Under the pieces are notes generated by a model. It saw only the letters and a program-made list of their open reading frames with translations, was not told where the DNA came from and searched no databases. Source: Oscillospiraceae bacterium (GTDB taxonomy: Bacteria; Bacillota; Clostridia; Oscillospirales; Ruminococcaceae). From it: a stretch of 64,000 nucleotides of DNA. The stretch lies in NCBI GenBank assembly GCA_017828975.1, contig JAGAJN010000018.1, positions 1 to 64,000 on the forward strand. The letters are read 5' to 3'. Of the stretch, positions 9,489-18,373 are shown in pieces. The position numbers were made by a program, and so were the translations under genes. The stretch's first letter is position 1; every line of letters starts with the position of its first letter.

Positions 9489-10829
9489 ATGAATCCATAT
9501 CTTCCAAATTATGAGTATATCCCCGACGGCGAACCGAGAGTTTTCGGTGACAGAGTATATGTCTACGGTTCCCACGACAGATCAGGTTCGGACAGCTTCT
9601 GCGATTTTGTTCTGAAATGCTGGAGCGCACCCGTAAACGACCTTACCAAATGGGTCTGCCACGGCGATATTTTCCATACAAAAGCAGACAGAGATCACCC
9701 CTCGGACATCGACTGGAACGGCGACAATACTTTCCTTTTCGCTCCCGATGTTGTCAGGGGCGTTGACGGAAAATACTATCTTTACGCATACATTGTAAAC
9801 GCAAAGGGTTGTGTTGCCGTCAGCGACAAGCCCGAGGGACCATTCAAGCTTGTTTCCAAATACAAGTACACCATTCCCGACGAGGTCTGCTGCAACGGCT
9901 GGTTCATTGACCCGGGTGTTCTCGTGGACGACGACGGCAGGACATATATCTACTGCGGCTTTGAGCGGTCTTTTCTTGCCGAAGTAAACAGTGAAAATAT
10001 GTATGAGATAATTGACGGCAGCTGCATTGAACATTTTATCCCATGCACCGAAACAGAAGAAGGCGGATTTTCCGAAAAGGAATCGCTTTTCTATGAAGCC
10101 TGCTCGCCCCGAAAAATAAACGGCACCTATTATATGATATATTCCCCGAAACAAGGCAGCCGTCTTGCCTATGCCACCTCGGACAGTCCCACAGGGCCGT
10201 ACACCTATCGGGGATATATTGTTGACAACGGTGTTGATTATCCCGGTGGAAACAATCACGGTTCTGTTGCCTGCATAAACGGTCAGTGGTATATTTTCTA
10301 TCACCGTATGACGAACGGCACAATTATGTCAAGAAGAGGCTGCGTCGAGAAGATCGAGATACTTCCGGACGGCACTATCCCGCCCGTTGAAATGACATCT
10401 CTCGGCTTCGAGGACAGCCTTAATCCTTATGAAATTACTCCCGCTGATATTGCCTGCGTGCTGAAAGGAAGCGCATTTATTACCGAAAGAAATGTGTTTG
10501 ACAGAGCCGTTATCAACATACAGGACGGCGATGTTATCGGCTATAAATACTTCGATTTCGGCGAGGATAATTCAAGCAAAACCATGGAATTTGCCGCAAA
10601 GATCAGAGGAATGGGCTGCGACTGTCATATACACATTTTTGCAGACGATGAGGAAATAGGCGTTTGTGACATCGGGCAGGACGGCGGCATGGTAAAAACC
10701 GTTGTAAAAGCCGTTACGGGCAGACACGCCGTTTATTTCAAAATATCCACCGATTACAGCGGCTGGACAGCGGATTACTTCAAGGGCAGAAGCCTTTTTG
10801 AACTTTCCGAATTTGTGTTTATGAAATAG
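9489..10829 (+). CDS. GH43 family glycoside hydrolase (xylosidase/arabinofuranosidase type)
   Basis: A 446-residue protein without a signal peptide, so a cytoplasmic enzyme acting on imported oligosaccharides. The five-bladed propeller spans about residues 1-310 with the expected acidic triad: a candidate base Asp13 (YIPDGEPRVFGDRVYVYGSH), Asp141 in FIDPGVLVDDDG, and the acid Glu203 in FYEACSPRKINGTYYMIYS. Residues about 320-446 form a beta-rich C-terminal module of the kind that accompanies many GH43 enzymes (xylan-binding, CBM6-like). AGAAAGGCGG precedes ATG 9489. Hemicellulose side-chain or backbone cleavage is expected; exact specificity cannot be told from motifs. Its 3' end overlaps the convergent FIST-EAL gene by 11 bases. 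Confidence 0.85.
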   Translation: MNPYLPNYEYIPDGEPRVFGDRVYVYGSHDRSGSDSFCDFVLKCWSAPVNDLTKWVCHGDIFHTKADRDHPSDIDWNGDNTFLFAPDVVRGVDGKYYLYAYIVNAKGCVAVSDKPEGPFKLVSKYKYTIPDEVCCNGWFIDPGVLVDDDGRTYIYCGFERSFLAEVNSENMYEIIDGSCIEHFIPCTETEEGGFSEKESLFYEACSPRKINGTYYMIYSPKQGSRLAYATSDSPTGPYTYRGYIVDNGVDYPGGNNHGSVACINGQWYIFYHRMTNGTIMSRRGCVEKIEILPDGTIPPVEMTSLGFEDSLNPYEITPADIACVLKGSAFITERNVFDRAVINIQDGDVIGYKYFDFGEDNSSKTMEFAAKIRGMGCDCHIHIFADDEEIGVCDIGQDGGMVKTVVKAVTGRHAVYFKISTDYSGWTADYFKGRSLFELSEFVFMK

Positions 10830-13293
10830 TTTTAATGTCGGTCACATCAGCGTTTTCCCAAGGCTGCGGTTTAGAAAAATAATAACCCTGGGAGTATCTG
10901 ATGCCCATTTCTTCAATAATGGCCTGTATCTTCTCATTTTCAACAAATTCGGCGATCACCTGCTTTTGCTGATTGCCGCACCAGCTTGTGATGATCCCCA
11001 CAAACTGCATGCACTTTTCATCATCACAGATGGAACGGATAATTTCACCGTCAATTTTCAAGAAATCAGCGTCAATTCTGATAATGTGCATAAGATTTGA
11101 AAATCCGCTGCCGAAATCGTCAATAGCTATCTTTGCATTTTTTTCGTGTATTCTGTCGGCAAATTCCTTTATGTACTGATAATCGGTGACCTCCTCCGAT
11201 TCCACCAGCTCAAAAATAAAATTCTCGGGGTGAGCGGCTTTGTTCAGATATTGGAATATTATCTTTATCATTTCACGGTCGTAAATATCACGGACATTGA
11301 GATTTACAGTCACTTTTACATCGCTGTCAATAAACATTTTCATTACTTTTTTTACCATAGCGACCGACAGCAGCTCGTAAAGATCATACTTTTTTGCAAT
11401 GGGCAGAAACTGATTCGGAAAATATATTTTACCGCTTTTATCCGGTATTCTCATCAGCGATTCGTACAGCCCGAAGCGCTTTTCAATGTTATCGTAAATA
11501 CCCTGAAAATACGGCACCACACGTTCCTCCGAAAGTGCGTCCCTGATGACTTGAAGAATGTGTATTTCCTCCGTTTTATCCATTATACTGTCGGCTATTT
11601 GTTCGTATTTTACAAAGGGCATATTATGCTCGAAACCGTATTGCAGCGCCGTTTCCGCATGGTGAAGCGGCTCATTTTTATCCTCCACAACAGCACATTG
11701 ATAGGACAGCCGAACGTCGCTTAAAGAGATAGAATTAAGATACCTGAGCGTGCTCTCTGCAATTTTTTCAAACTCATTGCTGCTGATATTATCGTCGGCA
11801 GCAATAAGCAGGGACGAGGTCTCATAGCTGTAAATATGGACGATCCCGCACTCATTAAGCCTTGCGGAAACATTACCGTAAACCTTTTTAAGTTCCTCAA
11901 AGATCTCCTTGCGTCCTACGAACAGCTTGACCATTTTTTCGTTGCACAGAGCATACAGAGCGATCTTATTCAGATGTATTTTTTCTCTTTCACCGAGATA
12001 ACAAAACTGATTATCAAGTCCCAGCGCTTCATTTCGCAGAAGAGAATTTTTTATCTTGTTCTGCTGAGTTTCCAGCTGTTCGTTCAGCTGTCTGTTTCCC
12101 GATGCAAGCAGGTAATTAACCGCCTTGACATTGTTCTGACGAATTGCGGAGGAGTCGGAAAAATCTCTGCTCCTGAGAGGAATATGAGCGTTTTCATTTT
12201 CCGAAAGACAGGCAACGGCAAAAGTAAAGTTTGCAAAATAATTCTTGTTTTCTCTGCAAACGATCTCCCCCGACAGCAGTGCGCCGCTGATGTTGGTGGC
12301 TGTAAACTGCTCCGTTTCCCATCTTGCACAGCTGTGCATTACTATCATTCTCGACTGACAATCATACGCAAAAAGCAGTTCCGAAGGAGCTTCTTTCAGC
12401 GCCATATAGACCGTCCGCATTTCGCCCAATGTTTTCTGGGGGTTAAAATATCCCGAATAAATTCTCGAACCGCTTGGAAGCTCGCAGGAAAGCTCAAGCT
12501 GCTCTTCTTTTTTGTGTTCGTATTTCACAAAATACGGTATCCGTATATCTTCTTCCCTGATTATCGGGAATAAAACAGAAAGCTCGGGGTCATTTTCAAG
12601 CTCAGATTTATCGAGAAATTCCGAATACCACTTTGCACCGCTCACTCCGTCGATCTTTTCAATACAGCATTTACGTGATTTTGTGACAGTGCAGCTTTTT
12701 CCCGAATTGTCGGCACCGCATACGAAATCTTCATAAACAAAAAGATCGTCAGAAGATATAAATGCTGCCGAAACTGCTTTTTCGGATGCCCTGCCGCCCG
12801 CAAGCACATAGGAACGGCTTTTCTTCGCCTTATACCCTGCCGAACCGCCCAGCATTTTTACTCCCGGAGCTTTTTCATTTATCAGGTCGGCAAGCATTAT
12901 TCCCTTGGTAAATCCTGCCGGAAGAAAGATAAGCAGAAATCCGCTTCTGCCTTTAATAAGCTTTTCGGAAAGCTCAGAGCATATTTGCTTTTCGTTTTTC
13001 GTTCTGTCGATGAGAATGGAATCAATTTCGCATTTATCAAAGGTAGTGATCGACACAAGGCAGGAATCGGGAATTATTTTTCCGTCAAGTATGACCCCCG
13101 GTGTGGAACAGCCGATTATTTTGGCGTTTGGCAGAAGACCGCTTATCTCTGCCGACAATGAACTCATTTCCTCCGCTGAATGGACCGAGCTGTGTATTCG
13201 AATAAGCGCATGTTTGCTTCTGTCAATTCCTGTGCCGCTCAGAAAAATATCAAATTTCTGCTTGTTTTTATAAAGGTGATTATATACTTTCAT
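10819..13293 (-). CDS. FIST-sensor EAL-domain protein (c-di-GMP phosphodiesterase type)
   Basis: An 824-residue soluble protein. Residues about 20-210 match a FIST N domain (LSAEISGLLPNAKIIGCSTP), followed by FIST C to about 390; FIST domains are thought to bind small ligands such as amino acids. A linker and a vestigial GGDEF-like region (about 440-570) lead to an EAL domain (about 585-820). The signature is ESL (Glu611-Leu613) instead of EAL, while the downstream motifs NLNVRD, FELVESEEV, IAIDDFGSGFSNL and DFLKIDG look intact, so phosphodiesterase activity is plausible. No transmembrane segment is seen. It is monocistronic and convergent with GH43. Confidence 0.85.
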   Translation of the reverse strand: MKVYNHLYKNKQKFDIFLSGTGIDRSKHALIRIHSSVHSAEEMSSLSAEISGLLPNAKIIGCSTPGVILDGKIIPDSCLVSITTFDKCEIDSILIDRTKNEKQICSELSEKLIKGRSGFLLIFLPAGFTKGIMLADLINEKAPGVKMLGGSAGYKAKKSRSYVLAGGRASEKAVSAAFISSDDLFVYEDFVCGADNSGKSCTVTKSRKCCIEKIDGVSGAKWYSEFLDKSELENDPELSVLFPIIREEDIRIPYFVKYEHKKEEQLELSCELPSGSRIYSGYFNPQKTLGEMRTVYMALKEAPSELLFAYDCQSRMIVMHSCARWETEQFTATNISGALLSGEIVCRENKNYFANFTFAVACLSENENAHIPLRSRDFSDSSAIRQNNVKAVNYLLASGNRQLNEQLETQQNKIKNSLLRNEALGLDNQFCYLGEREKIHLNKIALYALCNEKMVKLFVGRKEIFEELKKVYGNVSARLNECGIVHIYSYETSSLLIAADDNISSNEFEKIAESTLRYLNSISLSDVRLSYQCAVVEDKNEPLHHAETALQYGFEHNMPFVKYEQIADSIMDKTEEIHILQVIRDALSEERVVPYFQGIYDNIEKRFGLYESLMRIPDKSGKIYFPNQFLPIAKKYDLYELLSVAMVKKVMKMFIDSDVKVTVNLNVRDIYDREMIKIIFQYLNKAAHPENFIFELVESEEVTDYQYIKEFADRIHEKNAKIAIDDFGSGFSNLMHIIRIDADFLKIDGEIIRSICDDEKCMQFVGIITSWCGNQQKQVIAEFVENEKIQAIIEEMGIRYSQGYYFSKPQPWENADVTDIKTIS

Positions 13294-13513
13294 ATTTTTT
13301 CTTCTTTCGTTTGTTTTATTAAAAACCGATTGATATTATATTGCACTTTTGTAAAATTCATTATCAGGCAAATGTAAAATTTGCAAAAAGTCCCGCACAC
13401 CAAGGCTTGTATTACGATTTTACTCAGATTTTACATTAACTTGATTTCAGATTCCACATAGTTGATTTAAAATTACAACGTTAGAATAAAATCAGGTAAT
13501 GTGGAGGAAATTT

Positions 13514-15250
13514 ATGAACGAGAATATTAAGGTGATTTTCGGGCTTGTGGGAGGGCTTGCAATGTTCCTTTACGGAATGAACAGCATGAGCGACGCTCTC
13601 CAGAAGGCTGCGGGAGAAAAAATGAAAAAGGTGCTGAGCTTTCTGACGAAAAATCCCATAATGGGCGCTCTTGCAGGTGCGCTTGTTACAGCAGTTCTGC
13701 AAAGCAGCTCGGCTACAACCGTAATGGTCATCGGATTTGTCAGCGCAGGACTTATGACTCTGCCGCAGGCTATCTCCGTTATTTTCGGTGCAAATATCGG
13801 TACAACAATGACGGCTCAGCTTATGGCATTTAAGATAAGCAACTACATTTATCCAATAATTTTTATCGGATTTATGCTGTACTTTGTGTCCAAAAGCGAA
13901 AAGGTGAAAAATATAGGAATGGTCATCTTCTCGTTCGGACTGCTTTTCGAGGGTATCGAAATAATGGGCGGAGTTATGAAGCCGCTGGCGGGAAGTCCCA
14001 TATTCACCGACCTTATGGGCAAGGTGGCTGAAATACCCGTGCTCGGAATACTTCTCGGTGCGGTCATGACCGTTGTGGTGCAGAGCAGCTCCGCAACGAT
14101 AGCTGTTCTCCAGAATTTTGCTTCACAGGCAGGCCCCGACGGAGTCACAAGCGTTATCGGACTTGCGGGAGCTATACCCATTCTGCTGGGCGACAACATC
14201 GGTACGACCATTACAGCACTTCTTGCATCTATCGGACAGTCAAAAAATGCAAAGCGCACAGCTATTGCACACAGCGTATTCAATATCAGCGGAAGTATTC
14301 TCTTTGCTTTTCTTATCCCTGTGCTTGCAAAATTCGTTCAGTATATTTCACCCAAGGGCAACGAGGTTGATGTTATTGCAAGGCAGATCGCAAATGCACA
14401 CACAACCTTCAATATTGTCTGCACGATCATCTGGCTGCCGCTTATTCCGATAATGGTAAAAATCGTCATGTTTATCGTAAGGGGCGAGGACAAGAATGTT
14501 TTTGCGGATTCAAAGCCCAGATTTCTTGATGAAAAGCTTATCGGTCAGCCTGTTGCGGCAATGTTTCTTGTTTCAGAGGAGATAAGACGTCTTTCGGAAT
14601 TCGGCGCAGAACTGCTTAAAAAAGCAAGAGCACTTTTTGAAAACGGAAACTCGGAGGTCGTTCGTGCTGATTTCGGCAGAGATTACGGCACCGTCAAAAA
14701 TCTTCACGACAGCATTTCCTCATACATAACCAAAATGCTTTCAAGCGGAAATCTTACCGAGGCACAGTCCGAACAGACGGCAGGACTTTTGTTTGTGACA
14801 AATAATATCGAGCGTATCTCCGACCGCTGCTTTGATATGTCGGTGGTCCTGAACAAGCTTTACGGCAGAAAAAAAGCATTGTCAAAATCGGCGGTCTCCG
14901 AGCTTGGAGAGTGCTTTGATATTGCAGATGAAATTTTTGAAAAAGCTATGCTGTCGGTGGAAAACGGCGATGAGGACGCTGTAAAAAAGGTATCAAAAAG
15001 TAAGGATAAAATGCGCAAAACACAGAAAAAGCTCAGCAAGGCTCATCTGTCAAGAGTGAAAAAGCAGGACTGCGATGCCGCTCTTACTCCCGATTATGCG
15101 GAGATACTTCACAGCCTTGACAGAATTGCGGATAACTGCATAGGAATTGCCGAGGAAGCGTCGGATAACATCTCCTTCGTTGACCTGAAAGCGGAAGCGG
15201 AATCTGTGGAAGAGAATATCTTCGGAGGTGCTCAATGCGTAACCGTCTGA
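13514..15250 (+). CDS. Na+/phosphate cotransporter with PhoU-like tail
   Basis: A 578-residue NptA/NaPi-II type carrier. Two inverted membrane repeats each contain the hallmark QSSSAT motif (LQSSSATTVMVIGF near residue 60 and VVQSSSATIAVLQNF near 195), and TIGTTMTA / NIGTTITA elements follow. From about residue 340 a cytoplasmic helical PhoU-like domain is present. I set the start at ATG 13514, behind GTGGAGGAAA, rather than the in-frame ATG at 13499 that overlaps the ribosome site. It begins a three-gene operon with a PstS-like lipoprotein (16-base overlap) and polyphosphate kinase, so its likely job is phosphate uptake feeding polyphosphate synthesis. Confidence 0.9.
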   Translation: MNENIKVIFGLVGGLAMFLYGMNSMSDALQKAAGEKMKKVLSFLTKNPIMGALAGALVTAVLQSSSATTVMVIGFVSAGLMTLPQAISVIFGANIGTTMTAQLMAFKISNYIYPIIFIGFMLYFVSKSEKVKNIGMVIFSFGLLFEGIEIMGGVMKPLAGSPIFTDLMGKVAEIPVLGILLGAVMTVVVQSSSATIAVLQNFASQAGPDGVTSVIGLAGAIPILLGDNIGTTITALLASIGQSKNAKRTAIAHSVFNISGSILFAFLIPVLAKFVQYISPKGNEVDVIARQIANAHTTFNIVCTIIWLPLIPIMVKIVMFIVRGEDKNVFADSKPRFLDEKLIGQPVAAMFLVSEEIRRLSEFGAELLKKARALFENGNSEVVRADFGRDYGTVKNLHDSISSYITKMLSSGNLTEAQSEQTAGLLFVTNNIERISDRCFDMSVVLNKLYGRKKALSKSAVSELGECFDIADEIFEKAMLSVENGDEDAVKKVSKSKDKMRKTQKKLSKAHLSRVKKQDCDAALTPDYAEILHSLDRIADNCIGIAEEASDNISFVDLKAEAESVEENIFGGAQCVTV

Positions 15251-16071
15251 TATTGACCCTTGGTATCTGCGCCGTGCTGGCTCTCTCCTCCTGCTCCGTA
15301 AAAAATGAGCTGCCCGACCTTTCGGGAATGGGTGAGATAACCGCTATTTCCCGTGAGGAAGGCTCGGGAACGAGAGATGAATTTGAGAATATTATCGGTA
15401 CAAATTCAAGCGGTACAGTAAATATTGCACTATCCACCGCCGAGGTATCTGATATTATTTCGGGCGACAAAAATGCTGTCGGATATGCCGCATACAGCAC
15501 ATCTGAGCTGCCCGAAAGCGTAAAGGCTGTTTCCGTAAACGGCATATCCCCCACCGAGGAAAATATCGGCAGCGGAAAATATCCCTTGTGCAGAAGCTAT
15601 TATCTTGCATACACCGGAGAATTGTCCGCCGCTGAAACGGATTTCCTTGCGTATGTAATGAGTGCGGGACAGACTGTCGCAGATGAGGAATGTGCAGCCG
15701 TAAAGAAAAGCAGCAGCTTTCTGTCGGATAAATCGTCGGGGAAAATAAAAATATGCGGTTCCACATCAATGGCTCCCCTCATTGAAAAAATGGCAGAGAA
15801 CTACAAAAGCTATAATCCTAATGCAGTTATCGAAATAAACGCAACCGACTCCTCGGACGGACTAAATTCGGCTATACGAGGCGAGTGCGATATAGCTATG
15901 TCCTCCCGTGAGCTTACCGATTATGAAAACGAACTTCTCACCAAAAAAGCGGTGGCGAGGGACGGTATCGCAGTAATTGTTAATTCGGAAAATCCCGTTA
16001 AAAATCTTTCAGAGGAACAAATAAAGCAAATTTATGATAATAATGCGGAGAAATGGAGCGATCTAAAATGA
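15235..16071 (+). CDS. PstS-like phosphate-binding lipoprotein with swapped half-domains
   Basis: A 278-residue lipoprotein (signal peptide 1-19, lipobox LSSC, Cys20). It has all the hallmarks of PstS but in permuted order. The segment that is normally C-terminal comes first: SREEGSGTRDEF (39-50), VGYAAYSTS (82-90), YPLCRSYYLAYTG (116-128). The normally N-terminal half follows: GKIKICGSTSMAPL (169-182), AMSSREL (221-227), ARDGIAVIVN (241-250), and it ends in NNAEKWSDLK, which in ordinary PstS precedes the SGTR loop. Thus the chain is cut at the hinge and the original ends are joined by a Ser/Lys-rich linker (about 150-170). GGAGGTG precedes ATG 15235. No pst ABC genes are nearby; it is encoded between the Na/Pi carrier and PPK1. 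Confidence 0.85.
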   Translation: MRNRLILTLGICAVLALSSCSVKNELPDLSGMGEITAISREEGSGTRDEFENIIGTNSSGTVNIALSTAEVSDIISGDKNAVGYAAYSTSELPESVKAVSVNGISPTEENIGSGKYPLCRSYYLAYTGELSAAETDFLAYVMSAGQTVADEECAAVKKSSSFLSDKSSGKIKICGSTSMAPLIEKMAENYKSYNPNAVIEINATDSSDGLNSAIRGECDIAMSSRELTDYENELLTKKAVARDGIAVIVNSENPVKNLSEEQIKQIYDNNAEKWSDLK

Positions 16072-18155
16072 GCAAATCGGCGGTATGCGAAAAGCAGGTC
16101 TATATGAACAGGGAAATTTCCTGGCTGAAATTTAACGAGAGAGTTCTGGAGGAAGCGGAGAGCGAGAAAAATCCGCTCTGCGAAAGACTTTCCTTCGTGT
16201 CCATTTATCAGAGCAATCTGGACGAATTTTTTATGGTGAGAGTAGGTTCTCTTATCGACCAGATGCTTGTTGACAAAAATATTCGTGAAAACAAAACGGA
16301 TATGACTGCTGGAGAACAGCTTGATGCCGTTCTTGACAGGGTACACACCCTTAATGAACGAAAGGACATTGTTTACGGAAAGCTGATGGGCAGACTTGAG
16401 GAGCATAATGTAAGAATAGTCAATTTCAGAAACATTAACAAGAAGGAAAACGAGCATCTTGAAGAGTATTTTAATTCGGAAATTGCACCATTTCTTTCTC
16501 CCGTTATCGTGGGCGAAAGACAGCCCTTTCCGTTCCTCAAAAACAAGGATATTTATGCGGCTGCTGTCCTTGAAAAGAAAAGCGGAAAGAAGAAGATCGG
16601 CATAATTCCCTGCGGCAGCGGCGTTATTCCCCGTCTTATTGAAGTAGGCAAAAACAGCGGTACATATATCCTTTCCGAGGAGCTTATCCTGCATTTTGCG
16701 CCGCAGGTTTTCAAGGAATATACCGTAAAATCCAAGTCGCTGCTGAGAGTGACGAGAAATGCGGATATTGATGCAGATGCACTTTATGACGAGGACCTTG
16801 ATTATCGTGAATTTATGGCGGATATTATCAGGCAAAGAAAAAGACTTTCTCCCGTTCGTCTTGAGCTTTCAAGAGAGCTTGACGAGGAGATAGTTGAGAA
16901 GCTTTGCGGATATATGGACATTGAGCGGAAGTATGTTTTCCGTAATATTTCTCCCCTTGACCTTTCCTTTGTGTTTGAATTGCAGGACCGTCTGCGTCAG
17001 AGAGCCGAGCTTTTCTATCCCAAAAGAATACCCCAAAAATCGGCGCAGTTTATTGACGGCAGACCTATACTTGAACAGATAAAGGAAAAGGATAAGCTGC
17101 TTGCGTATCCCTTTGACAGTATAAAACCGTTCCTGAATATGCTTCACGAAGCGGCAGCCGACAAGGATGTTGTATCCATAAAAATGACTCTTTACCGAGT
17201 TGCAAAAAACAGCGAAGTGGTAAACGCACTTATCGAAGCCGCCGAAAACGGCAAGAACGTGCTTGTGCTTGTTGAACTGAAAGCCAGATTTGACGAGGAA
17301 AACAACATCGAATGGTCACGCCGCCTTGAAGCTGCGGGCTGTACGGTGATTTACGGTCTGAACGGCTTCAAGGTACATTCAAAGCTTTGCCTTATCACGA
17401 AAAATATTAACGGCAATCCCGAATATTACACTCAGATCGGCACGGGAAATTATAACGAAAAGACTTCCCGTATTTACACAGATCTGTCCCTTATGACCGC
17501 CGACAGCACTATCGGACGGAACGCCAACGACGTTTTCAACGCCCTTGCCTCCGACACGACGGTAAAAACCTCCGAGGCTCTTCTTGTTGCGCCCAATTGT
17601 CTGCAAAACAAAGTAATTGAAATGATAGATGAGCAGATAGCTCTTGCCGAAAAAGGTGAGGAAGCGTATATCGGCGTGAAGATAAATTCCCTCACCGACA
17701 AGACCATAATCGACGAGCTTATCAAGGCTTCAAAGGCGGGGGTCAAAATCGAGCTTGCCGTCAGAGGAATATGCTGCCTTATCCCCGGTGTTCCCGGCGA
17801 AACGGATAATATCAGGGTGATAAGCGTTGTGGGACGTTTCCTTGAACATTCGAGGATCTACATCTTCGGCAAGGGCGAAGCTGCAAAGGTTTATATTGCG
17901 TCGGCTGATTTTATGACCAGAAACACCCTCCGCAGAGTTGAGGTCGCAGCACCCGTTTATGACGACAGCATAAGAGAGCAGATAGTTTATATGTTTGACA
18001 GGATAATGTCCGACAATGTTCAGGCAAGAGAAATGAAAAGCGACGGAAATTATGTCCGTGTGGAAAATGACAATGAAAAGCTGAACAGTCAGGAGCATTT
18101 CTACGACAAGGCTTACGAACAGGCTCAGACTGCGGAAATGATAAGCGGAAATTAA
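16068..18155 (+). CDS. ppk1: Polyphosphate kinase 1 (first copy)
   Basis: A 695-residue PPK1 that makes polyphosphate from ATP. The N domain opens with YMNREISWLKFNERVLEEA; the two catalytic histidines are His437 in FKVHSKLCLI (autophosphorylated residue) and His594 in FLEHSRIYIF. The tail TRNTLRRVEVAAPVYD is typical. I chose ATG 16068, nine bases after GGAG and forming an ATGA overlap with the stop of the PstS-like gene; the in-frame ATG 16053 has poor spacing. Third gene of the phosphate operon, followed by a strong terminator. A second full-length copy lies at 34307-36418. Confidence 0.95.
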   Translation: MSKSAVCEKQVYMNREISWLKFNERVLEEAESEKNPLCERLSFVSIYQSNLDEFFMVRVGSLIDQMLVDKNIRENKTDMTAGEQLDAVLDRVHTLNERKDIVYGKLMGRLEEHNVRIVNFRNINKKENEHLEEYFNSEIAPFLSPVIVGERQPFPFLKNKDIYAAAVLEKKSGKKKIGIIPCGSGVIPRLIEVGKNSGTYILSEELILHFAPQVFKEYTVKSKSLLRVTRNADIDADALYDEDLDYREFMADIIRQRKRLSPVRLELSRELDEEIVEKLCGYMDIERKYVFRNISPLDLSFVFELQDRLRQRAELFYPKRIPQKSAQFIDGRPILEQIKEKDKLLAYPFDSIKPFLNMLHEAAADKDVVSIKMTLYRVAKNSEVVNALIEAAENGKNVLVLVELKARFDEENNIEWSRRLEAAGCTVIYGLNGFKVHSKLCLITKNINGNPEYYTQIGTGNYNEKTSRIYTDLSLMTADSTIGRNANDVFNALASDTTVKTSEALLVAPNCLQNKVIEMIDEQIALAEKGEEAYIGVKINSLTDKTIIDELIKASKAGVKIELAVRGICCLIPGVPGETDNIRVISVVGRFLEHSRIYIFGKGEAAKVYIASADFMTRNTLRRVEVAAPVYDDSIREQIVYMFDRIMSDNVQAREMKSDGNYVRVENDNEKLNSQEHFYDKAYEQAQTAEMISGN

Positions 18156-18273: not shown

Positions 18274-18302
18274 TTGACAAAAAGTCATGCCAATGATATA
18301 AT
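18274..18302 (+). promoter_or_regulatory. Consensus promoter of the MFS gene
   Basis: TTGACA, 17-base spacer, TATAAT; a leader of about 65 bases to ATG 18374. Confidence 0.85.
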
Positions 18303-18373
18303 AATATGGTATTCGTATATTTTGCTTGAAAGCCTTATTTCCCGCATTTAAAGCCGAAAGGAACATCAATAAA

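Follow-up and report, generated by a model that had tools for sequence, protein, structure and literature searches.

The DNA studied here (the window) comprises 64,000 nucleotides (nt), positions 1 to 64,000 of contig JAGAJN010000018.1 of an Oscillospiraceae bacterium, and carries at 15235..16071 a gene whose 278-residue product, judged by its sequence, is a genuine circularly permuted PstS-type lipoprotein (PstS' below), a permuted homologue rather than a standard member of the PstS family. All features lie on the forward strand unless stated otherwise. The open reading frame is intact, has the ribosome-binding site GGAGG (15224..15228) 6 nt upstream of its ATG and begins with a signal peptide and lipobox, recognised by motif only, that end at C20 of LSSC (15235..15294), so that the intact lipoprotein gene with a good lipobox and a strong ribosome site described in a sequence-only reading of this DNA was found again. 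The first half in the gene (residues 34-150, 15334..15684) corresponds to the second half of canonical PstS, with SREEGSGTR at 39-47, GYAAY at 83-87 and YPLCRSYYLAY (YPLxRxxY) at 116-126. It is followed by a linker that connects the former C terminus with the former N terminus (residues 151-168, 15685..15738; 18 residues between the profile matches) and by a second half (residues 169-277, 15739..16065) that corresponds to the first half of canonical PstS, with GSTS at 175-178, SSREL at 223-227, DGIAV at 243-247 and KW at 273-274, directly before the stop. Both halves were delimited by profile matches, and the linker additionally by comparison of permuted proteins. The gene is not part of a pstSCAB operon, its neighbours in the window being nptA (13499..15250), a Na/Pi cotransporter gene with a C-terminal PhoU domain (PF02690, 5.7e-64; PF01895, 3e-20), and the polyphosphate kinase gene ppk1 (16053..18155; profile matches and the list of open reading frames). 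The first 16 nt of the PstS' gene are shared with the 3' end of nptA. Its own end is shared with ppk1, over 4 nt (as ATGA) if ppk1 starts with the ATG at 16068 or over 19 nt if it starts at 16053.

That the landmarks of PstS stand in swapped order was already claimed in the sequence-only reading, and searches with profiles and solved structures bear this out. PF12849 matches PstS' with E=5.8e-35 and 121.8 bits (cut-off 27) in two stretches, the best of which places residues 164-276 on profile positions 5-125, and TIGR02136 also gives two stretches (E=6.3e-47), the best with residues 148-277 on positions 16-155. Each half of the PBP_like_2 / PstS profile is represented, and a profile search of the genome aligned 15331-15663, in the first half of the gene, with positions 131-265 and 15724-16071, in the second, with positions 5-128. 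The TIGR02136 score of 160.2 bits lies below the curated cut-off of 206.6, the canonical order of the halves being absent. Searched against the Protein Data Bank, the canonical chains 4gd5 and 4q8r align with PstS' as two swapped pieces, and 1twy and 4exl align in two stretches as well, of which the best one alone was displayed. Chain 4h1x ('Phosphate-binding protein pstS 2'), which we take to come from Streptococcus pneumoniae, is colinear with PstS', residues 30-278 aligning with 6-265 of the chain (E=2.4e-40). With a profile query the alignment runs over residues 27-277 and 3-265. As aligned with PstS', 4h1x has SGTR first and GSTS later. The colinear 4h1x together with the swapped canonical chains shows that the permutation is real and already present in a solved structure. 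Three sequence features of the circularly permuted branch (4h1x type) are found in PstS': a colinear full-length match, a linker of 18-21 residues and a C terminus directly past the W motif. The same order occurs in many other genomes as well as in the solved chain and therefore misassembly is excluded, as the sequence-only reading had held. The same order, for which that reading proposed to search orthologues, is present in our family, phylum and class samples, in Treponema saccharophilum and in Monoglobus.

In 63 of 63 distinct reading frames with the permuted order, 18-21 residues separate the two profile matches, and in 55 of the 63 the protein stops, at its new C terminus, 1-3 residues past the end of the half. 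It had been proposed that the cut lies exactly at the interdomain hinge. However, the cut site appears to be about 30 residues beyond the DGIAV strand, taken as the first lobe crossing, and thus inside lobe 2; this lobe assignment also leans on a passage of PMC12421899 describing the lobes of another PstS. Because the cut would lie inside lobe 2, the lipid anchor would sit on that lobe.

We take the phosphate ligand positions of E. coli PstS to be T10, F11, S38, D56, R135, S139, G140 and T141. According to the alignment, R135, S139, G140 and T141 correspond to R40, S44, G45 and T46 of PstS' (15352..15372), and T10 and S38 to T177 and S206, all of which are kept; T177/S178, S206 and S224-R225 (counterparts of T10/F11, S38 and D56 plus the next residue) are encoded within 15763..15909. 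R40, S44, G45, T46, S206 and S178 are invariant across all 64 permuted rows of the alignment; at position 177, 48 of these rows have Ser and 16 have Thr. The counterpart of D56, S224, is Ser in all 64 permuted and in 49 of 51 canonical rows and is followed by R225 in PstS', and the counterpart of F11 is Ser in PstS' and likewise in 44 of the 51 canonical rows. With these ligand positions conserved, phosphate binding by PstS' is expected.

The permuted order is widespread. With the second permuted PstS of the same genome as query, 83 of 119 genomes in the phylum sample had a match at E 1e-8; among the matches listed, one-piece (permuted) ones came from at least 5 of the 119. The family sample (E 1e-10) gave matches in 46 of 60 genomes, with a permuted copy in 17, two swapped pieces in 28, one unclear case and no match in 14. 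At E 1e-30, a limit that favours permuted matches, 32 of 147 genomes in the class sample matched, 27 over the full length in permuted order, one truncated in permuted order and four with a half only. Judging from the family codes of the phylum and class samples, the permuted order is found in at least 23 families of one phylum. Permuted PstS is encoded also on the Treponema saccharophilum plasmid pTS2 and in Monoglobus pectinilyticus, in both cases in the order pstS-pstC-pstA-pstB-phoU, and both records annotate it as 'substrate-binding domain-containing protein'. A FIST-EAL protein (10819-13293, reverse strand) adjoins nptA in the window, and a FIST-domain gene is also found near the T. saccharophilum pst operon with the permuted PstS (L094). 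A lipoprotein-like protein of 798 amino acids (G000:C10, L015:6704-9100) has a PBP_like_2 domain in canonical order and a long C-terminal part with no Pfam match at 0.001.

The own genome of PstS' has in addition a complete pstS-pstC-pstA-pstB-phoU operon on contig C13, and its PstS is also permuted. The set nptA-pstS'-ppk1 is found also at L006, L007, L008, L142 (G514). In a 48-row PstS tree the NptA-linked PstS' cluster on a single branch, with 9 rows of which 8 are distinct (L008 and L187 being the same) and with ultrafast bootstrap (UFB) 99 and SH-like approximate likelihood ratio test (SH-aLRT) 97, and the branch is one side of a split in 98% of 200 bootstrap trees, which separates it from the pstC-linked permuted PstS. 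Its rows are the window, L006, L007, L008, L187 (G514), L128/L129 (G491, G623), L140 (G138) and L156 (G764, from another family). All nine adjoin NptA. Five of them (the window, L006, L007, L008 and L187) are arranged as nptA-pstS'-ppk1, and four (L128, L129, L140 and L156) in the reverse order pstS'-nptA; the gaps between nptA and pstS' are 2 nt in L147, 3 nt in L156 and 15 nt in L140. The remaining permuted PstS with visible neighbours sit ahead of pstC, the exceptions without pstC in the flank examined being L029 and L121 (short loci), L157, L202, L203 and L204. The last four may be further orphan permuted PstS outside the NptA group. A profile of the NptA-linked group exceeded 300 bits only in G000 and G764 among 391 class genomes and in five of 396 family genomes (G623, G491, G000, G514, G138), and the next matches in both sets were at about 276 bits or less. 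NptA-linked permuted PstS is a rare kind, and the operon in which it is coupled to a Na/Pi cotransporter and a polyphosphate kinase rather than to pstCAB is the more unusual feature of the locus, one absent from the sequence-only reading. The counts of promoters and terminators around the operon were no higher than in shuffled sequence. Beyond ppk1, a perfect sigma-70 consensus (TTGACA, 17 nt, TATAAT, with TG before it) stands at 18274-18302 ahead of a major facilitator superfamily gene at 18326.

Trees of PstS and of its transporter partner PstC point to a common origin of the permuted forms. A first quick PstS tree, built after removal of L070, L121, duplicates and rows whose halves were short, placed 63 of 64 permuted rows and the canonical L071 on one branch with support 97, with the long-branch permuted L122 outside it. 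For the second quick tree and the careful tree, very long branches and near-copies were dropped, which kept 95 and 77 of 115 rows, respectively. The second quick tree separated 54 permuted from 41 canonical rows by one branch (SH-aLRT 97). In a quick PstC tree, from which 25 of the 115 rows were left out for having no PstC in the stretch examined and two more as duplicate or short, one branch with SH-aLRT 100 divided 53 rows of permuted operons from 35 of canonical operons; the PstC of L069 and L122 fell on the permuted side and that of L071 on the canonical side. The PstS trees alone give soft support for monophyly of the permuted rows. The clean PstC split indicates that permuted PstS travelled with its own transporter, which makes it likely that the form originated once, long ago, in an ancestral pst operon. 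Pairs of pstS genes in tandem ahead of pstC occur in both forms, permuted in L141 (G278) and canonical in L148 (G144), so that the permuted form could plausibly have come about when pstS was duplicated in tandem and the outer halves were then lost.

The explanation that we regard as best, and hold with modest confidence, is that PstS' is a permuted PstS lipoprotein of once-arisen descent which works with NptA, as carrier or as sensor, in an operon for phosphate uptake and storage, its function being read from gene linkage. The permuted form would have arisen once in an ancestral pst operon, most simply through tandem duplication and loss of the outer halves, and would since have been passed on alongside a PstC lineage of its own. 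The branch to which the gene of the window belongs would then have parted from pstCAB and become part of an operon with a Na/Pi cotransporter. The lipoprotein would be tethered on the outer side of the membrane through an end on the second lobe, the lobes would close on phosphate with the conserved Arg/Ser/Thr set, and the phosphate would be delivered, or its level reported, to the PhoU-bearing Na+/Pi cotransporter NptA, while PPK1 would store the incoming phosphorus as polyphosphate. The more specific proposal of a binding-protein-dependent Na+/phosphate symporter, in which the permuted PstS, freed of its ABC (ATP-binding cassette) transporter, is the dedicated delivery lipoprotein of a NaPi-II type NptA-PhoU in line with PPK1, we put forward only tentatively.

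Several results weigh against this account. In the careful PstS tree, the split between 36 permuted and 41 canonical rows has the weak support of 59/20, and L071 falls among the canonical rows. A tree that forces L071 together with the permuted rows (L122 excluded) beats the freely searched second quick tree by 50.8 log units (p-value of the approximately unbiased test, p-AU, 0.918), from which it follows that the free quick tree was under-searched. L071 may be a canonical sister or a reversion, and the PstS trees do not settle its placement. In the 48-row tree, made of chosen rows of which only 8 are canonical, the permuted L069 falls among the canonical rows, which is not so in the careful tree, and one clade of permuted rows is not rejected (p-AU 0.263). 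A structure predicted with AlphaFold from an alignment of 8 rows of near relatives, too shallow for the purpose, had a mean predicted local distance difference test score of 39.2 and a predicted template modelling score of 0.27, and the model was not used. A scan of viral contigs meant to deepen the alignment yielded 10 distant canonical PstS loci, and a second such scan no match. In favour of the account, the 10 rows of NptA that adjoin PstS' group on a single 100/100 branch apart from 15 other NptA, second copies of the same genomes included, in a tree for which the program warned of long branches meeting. Against it, in a wider set, an 11-row subclade (100/100) comprises 8 linked and 3 unlinked NptA (L250, L267, L268), and a clade of strictly PstS'-linked NptA was rejected (p-AU 0.0017). 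The unlinked NptA inside the subclade mean that NptA can do without PstS' and that, over evolutionary time, their partnership has been an optional one. At L250 (1501-4659) the order is nptA-corA-ppk1, with no PstS' and with a PhoU domain in NptA, and at L006 and L007 corA follows ppk1. An NptA-type PstS' was not found in G001, a draft genome of the same genus at 97% completeness. Decayed remnants are present in several relatives (L010 5959-8456, L011 5947-8459, L130 404-1926, L012 5160-7477), which lack nptA as well as the first half of PstS' and retain the second half or less before ppk1; ppk1 itself is broken into two frames in L010, L011 and L130. L011 and L130 are probably one lineage seen twice because both encode the same remnant, and L127 has the same layout before ppk1. 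We also considered whether half-genes represent a 'split PstS', but those of L009 and L126 end at a contig edge and those of L010, L011, L012 and L130 look decayed.

The main rival to a partnership with NptA is that PstS' is an extra phosphate-binding protein for a PstCAB encoded elsewhere, the adjacency to nptA reflecting shared regulation of phosphate genes. The full pst operon of the own genome, itself with a permuted PstS, could be served by PstS', G491 and G623 also carry both kinds, and nearly all other permuted PstS examined precede pstC. The NptA-linked proteins, however, are a divergent branch of their own (99/97), and they adjoin NptA in every row, in two gene orders and with overlapping frames or short gaps; shared regulation alone would not predict such strict adjacency. 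We therefore consider service to PstCAB possible but rather doubtful. That PstS' is a phosphate sensor or brake, which hands over no substrate and signals by way of the PhoU domain of NptA, would agree with the PhoU domain in the NptA of the window and with the three NptA of the same subclade that lack PstS', one of them (L250) with PhoU, which suggest that PstS' is probably not needed for transport itself. Profile scans (PF and TIGR) matched no signalling domain in PstS', though, and an extracytoplasmic protein would need to signal via NptA, and this reading seems unlikely to us.

A locus that is a dispensable relict in the course of being lost would account for the remnants in L010, L011, L012, L127 and L130, for the broken ppk1 frames in three of them (L010, L011 and L130), for the nptA of G138, which is in several frames, and for the lack of a find in G001. 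It is made improbable by the intact copies in the window, L006, L007, L008, L147, L129 and L156, which keep the ligand positions (L187 is identical to L008). The database matches in two pieces could also suggest a chance fusion or misassembly of the halves of two PstS genes. The misassembly part of this is already refuted, and the same order and breakpoints are shared by 63 proteins, by named plasmid records and by the crystal chain 4h1x. Halves from different parents were rejected as an origin, since a single group of permuted rows is not rejected with the tree of either half (p-AU 0.707 and 0.669), and we give a chance fusion hardly any credence.

The permuted PstS working with NptA can be set beside better known systems. 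Canonical PstS (TIGR02136, PF12849; 4gd5, 4q8r; E. coli PstS) shares both halves and the ligand positions with PstS' but has them in the opposite order. To our knowledge, natural circular permutants of binding proteins have rarely been described. The sequence-only reading knew of no described circularly permuted PstS; indeed we found no description naming one in the open-access literature, where an older one is possible, nor any paper there mentioning 4H1X, but that chain already has the swapped order. Pneumococcal PstS2 has the order of PstS' over its full length and, according to a passage of PMC4913102, belongs to the phosphate transporter Pst2 as one of its subunits; the main text of that paper has no word starting with 'permut'. 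Unlike PstS', pneumococcal PstS2 belongs to an ABC operon, pst2-phoU2, and is not beside NptA. A circularly permuted glucose-binding lipoprotein, Tp0684 or MglB-2 of Treponema pallidum, is described in parts of PMC4990184, which offer tethering as a possible reason for permuted topologies. As far as described there, it resembles permuted PstS in being a natural permutation in a tethered binding protein of treponemes and gut Gram-positives, and differs from PstS' in its type I sugar-binding fold, its different cut point and its origin in an independent event. Permuted PstS would thus offer a second independent tethered case for probing the tethering idea of PMC4990184, as far as it is set out in those parts.

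Fixed breakpoints and strict co-inheritance with PstC, in the rows tested, make the effect of the presumed shift of the anchor to the other lobe directly testable by comparison with canonical PstS. The annotation of these proteins has a gap, TIGR02136 scoring PstS' under its cut-off and the two named relatives being called only substrate-binding proteins. TRAP and TTT families are secondary transporters that depend on solute-binding proteins. If the hand-off of phosphate is true, the system would be like these in that a Venus-flytrap protein would feed a secondary transporter, although NptA is unlike them in being of the PF02690 Na/Pi type, and we know of no transporter of this type that uses a binding-protein partner. 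The permutation itself is an old rearrangement common to many bacteria that has apparently gone unremarked. What is new here is the NptA-linked sub-branch of permuted PstS in place of the partnership with pstCAB, and if the partnership with NptA is real, it would add a binding-protein-dependent secondary transporter for phosphate.

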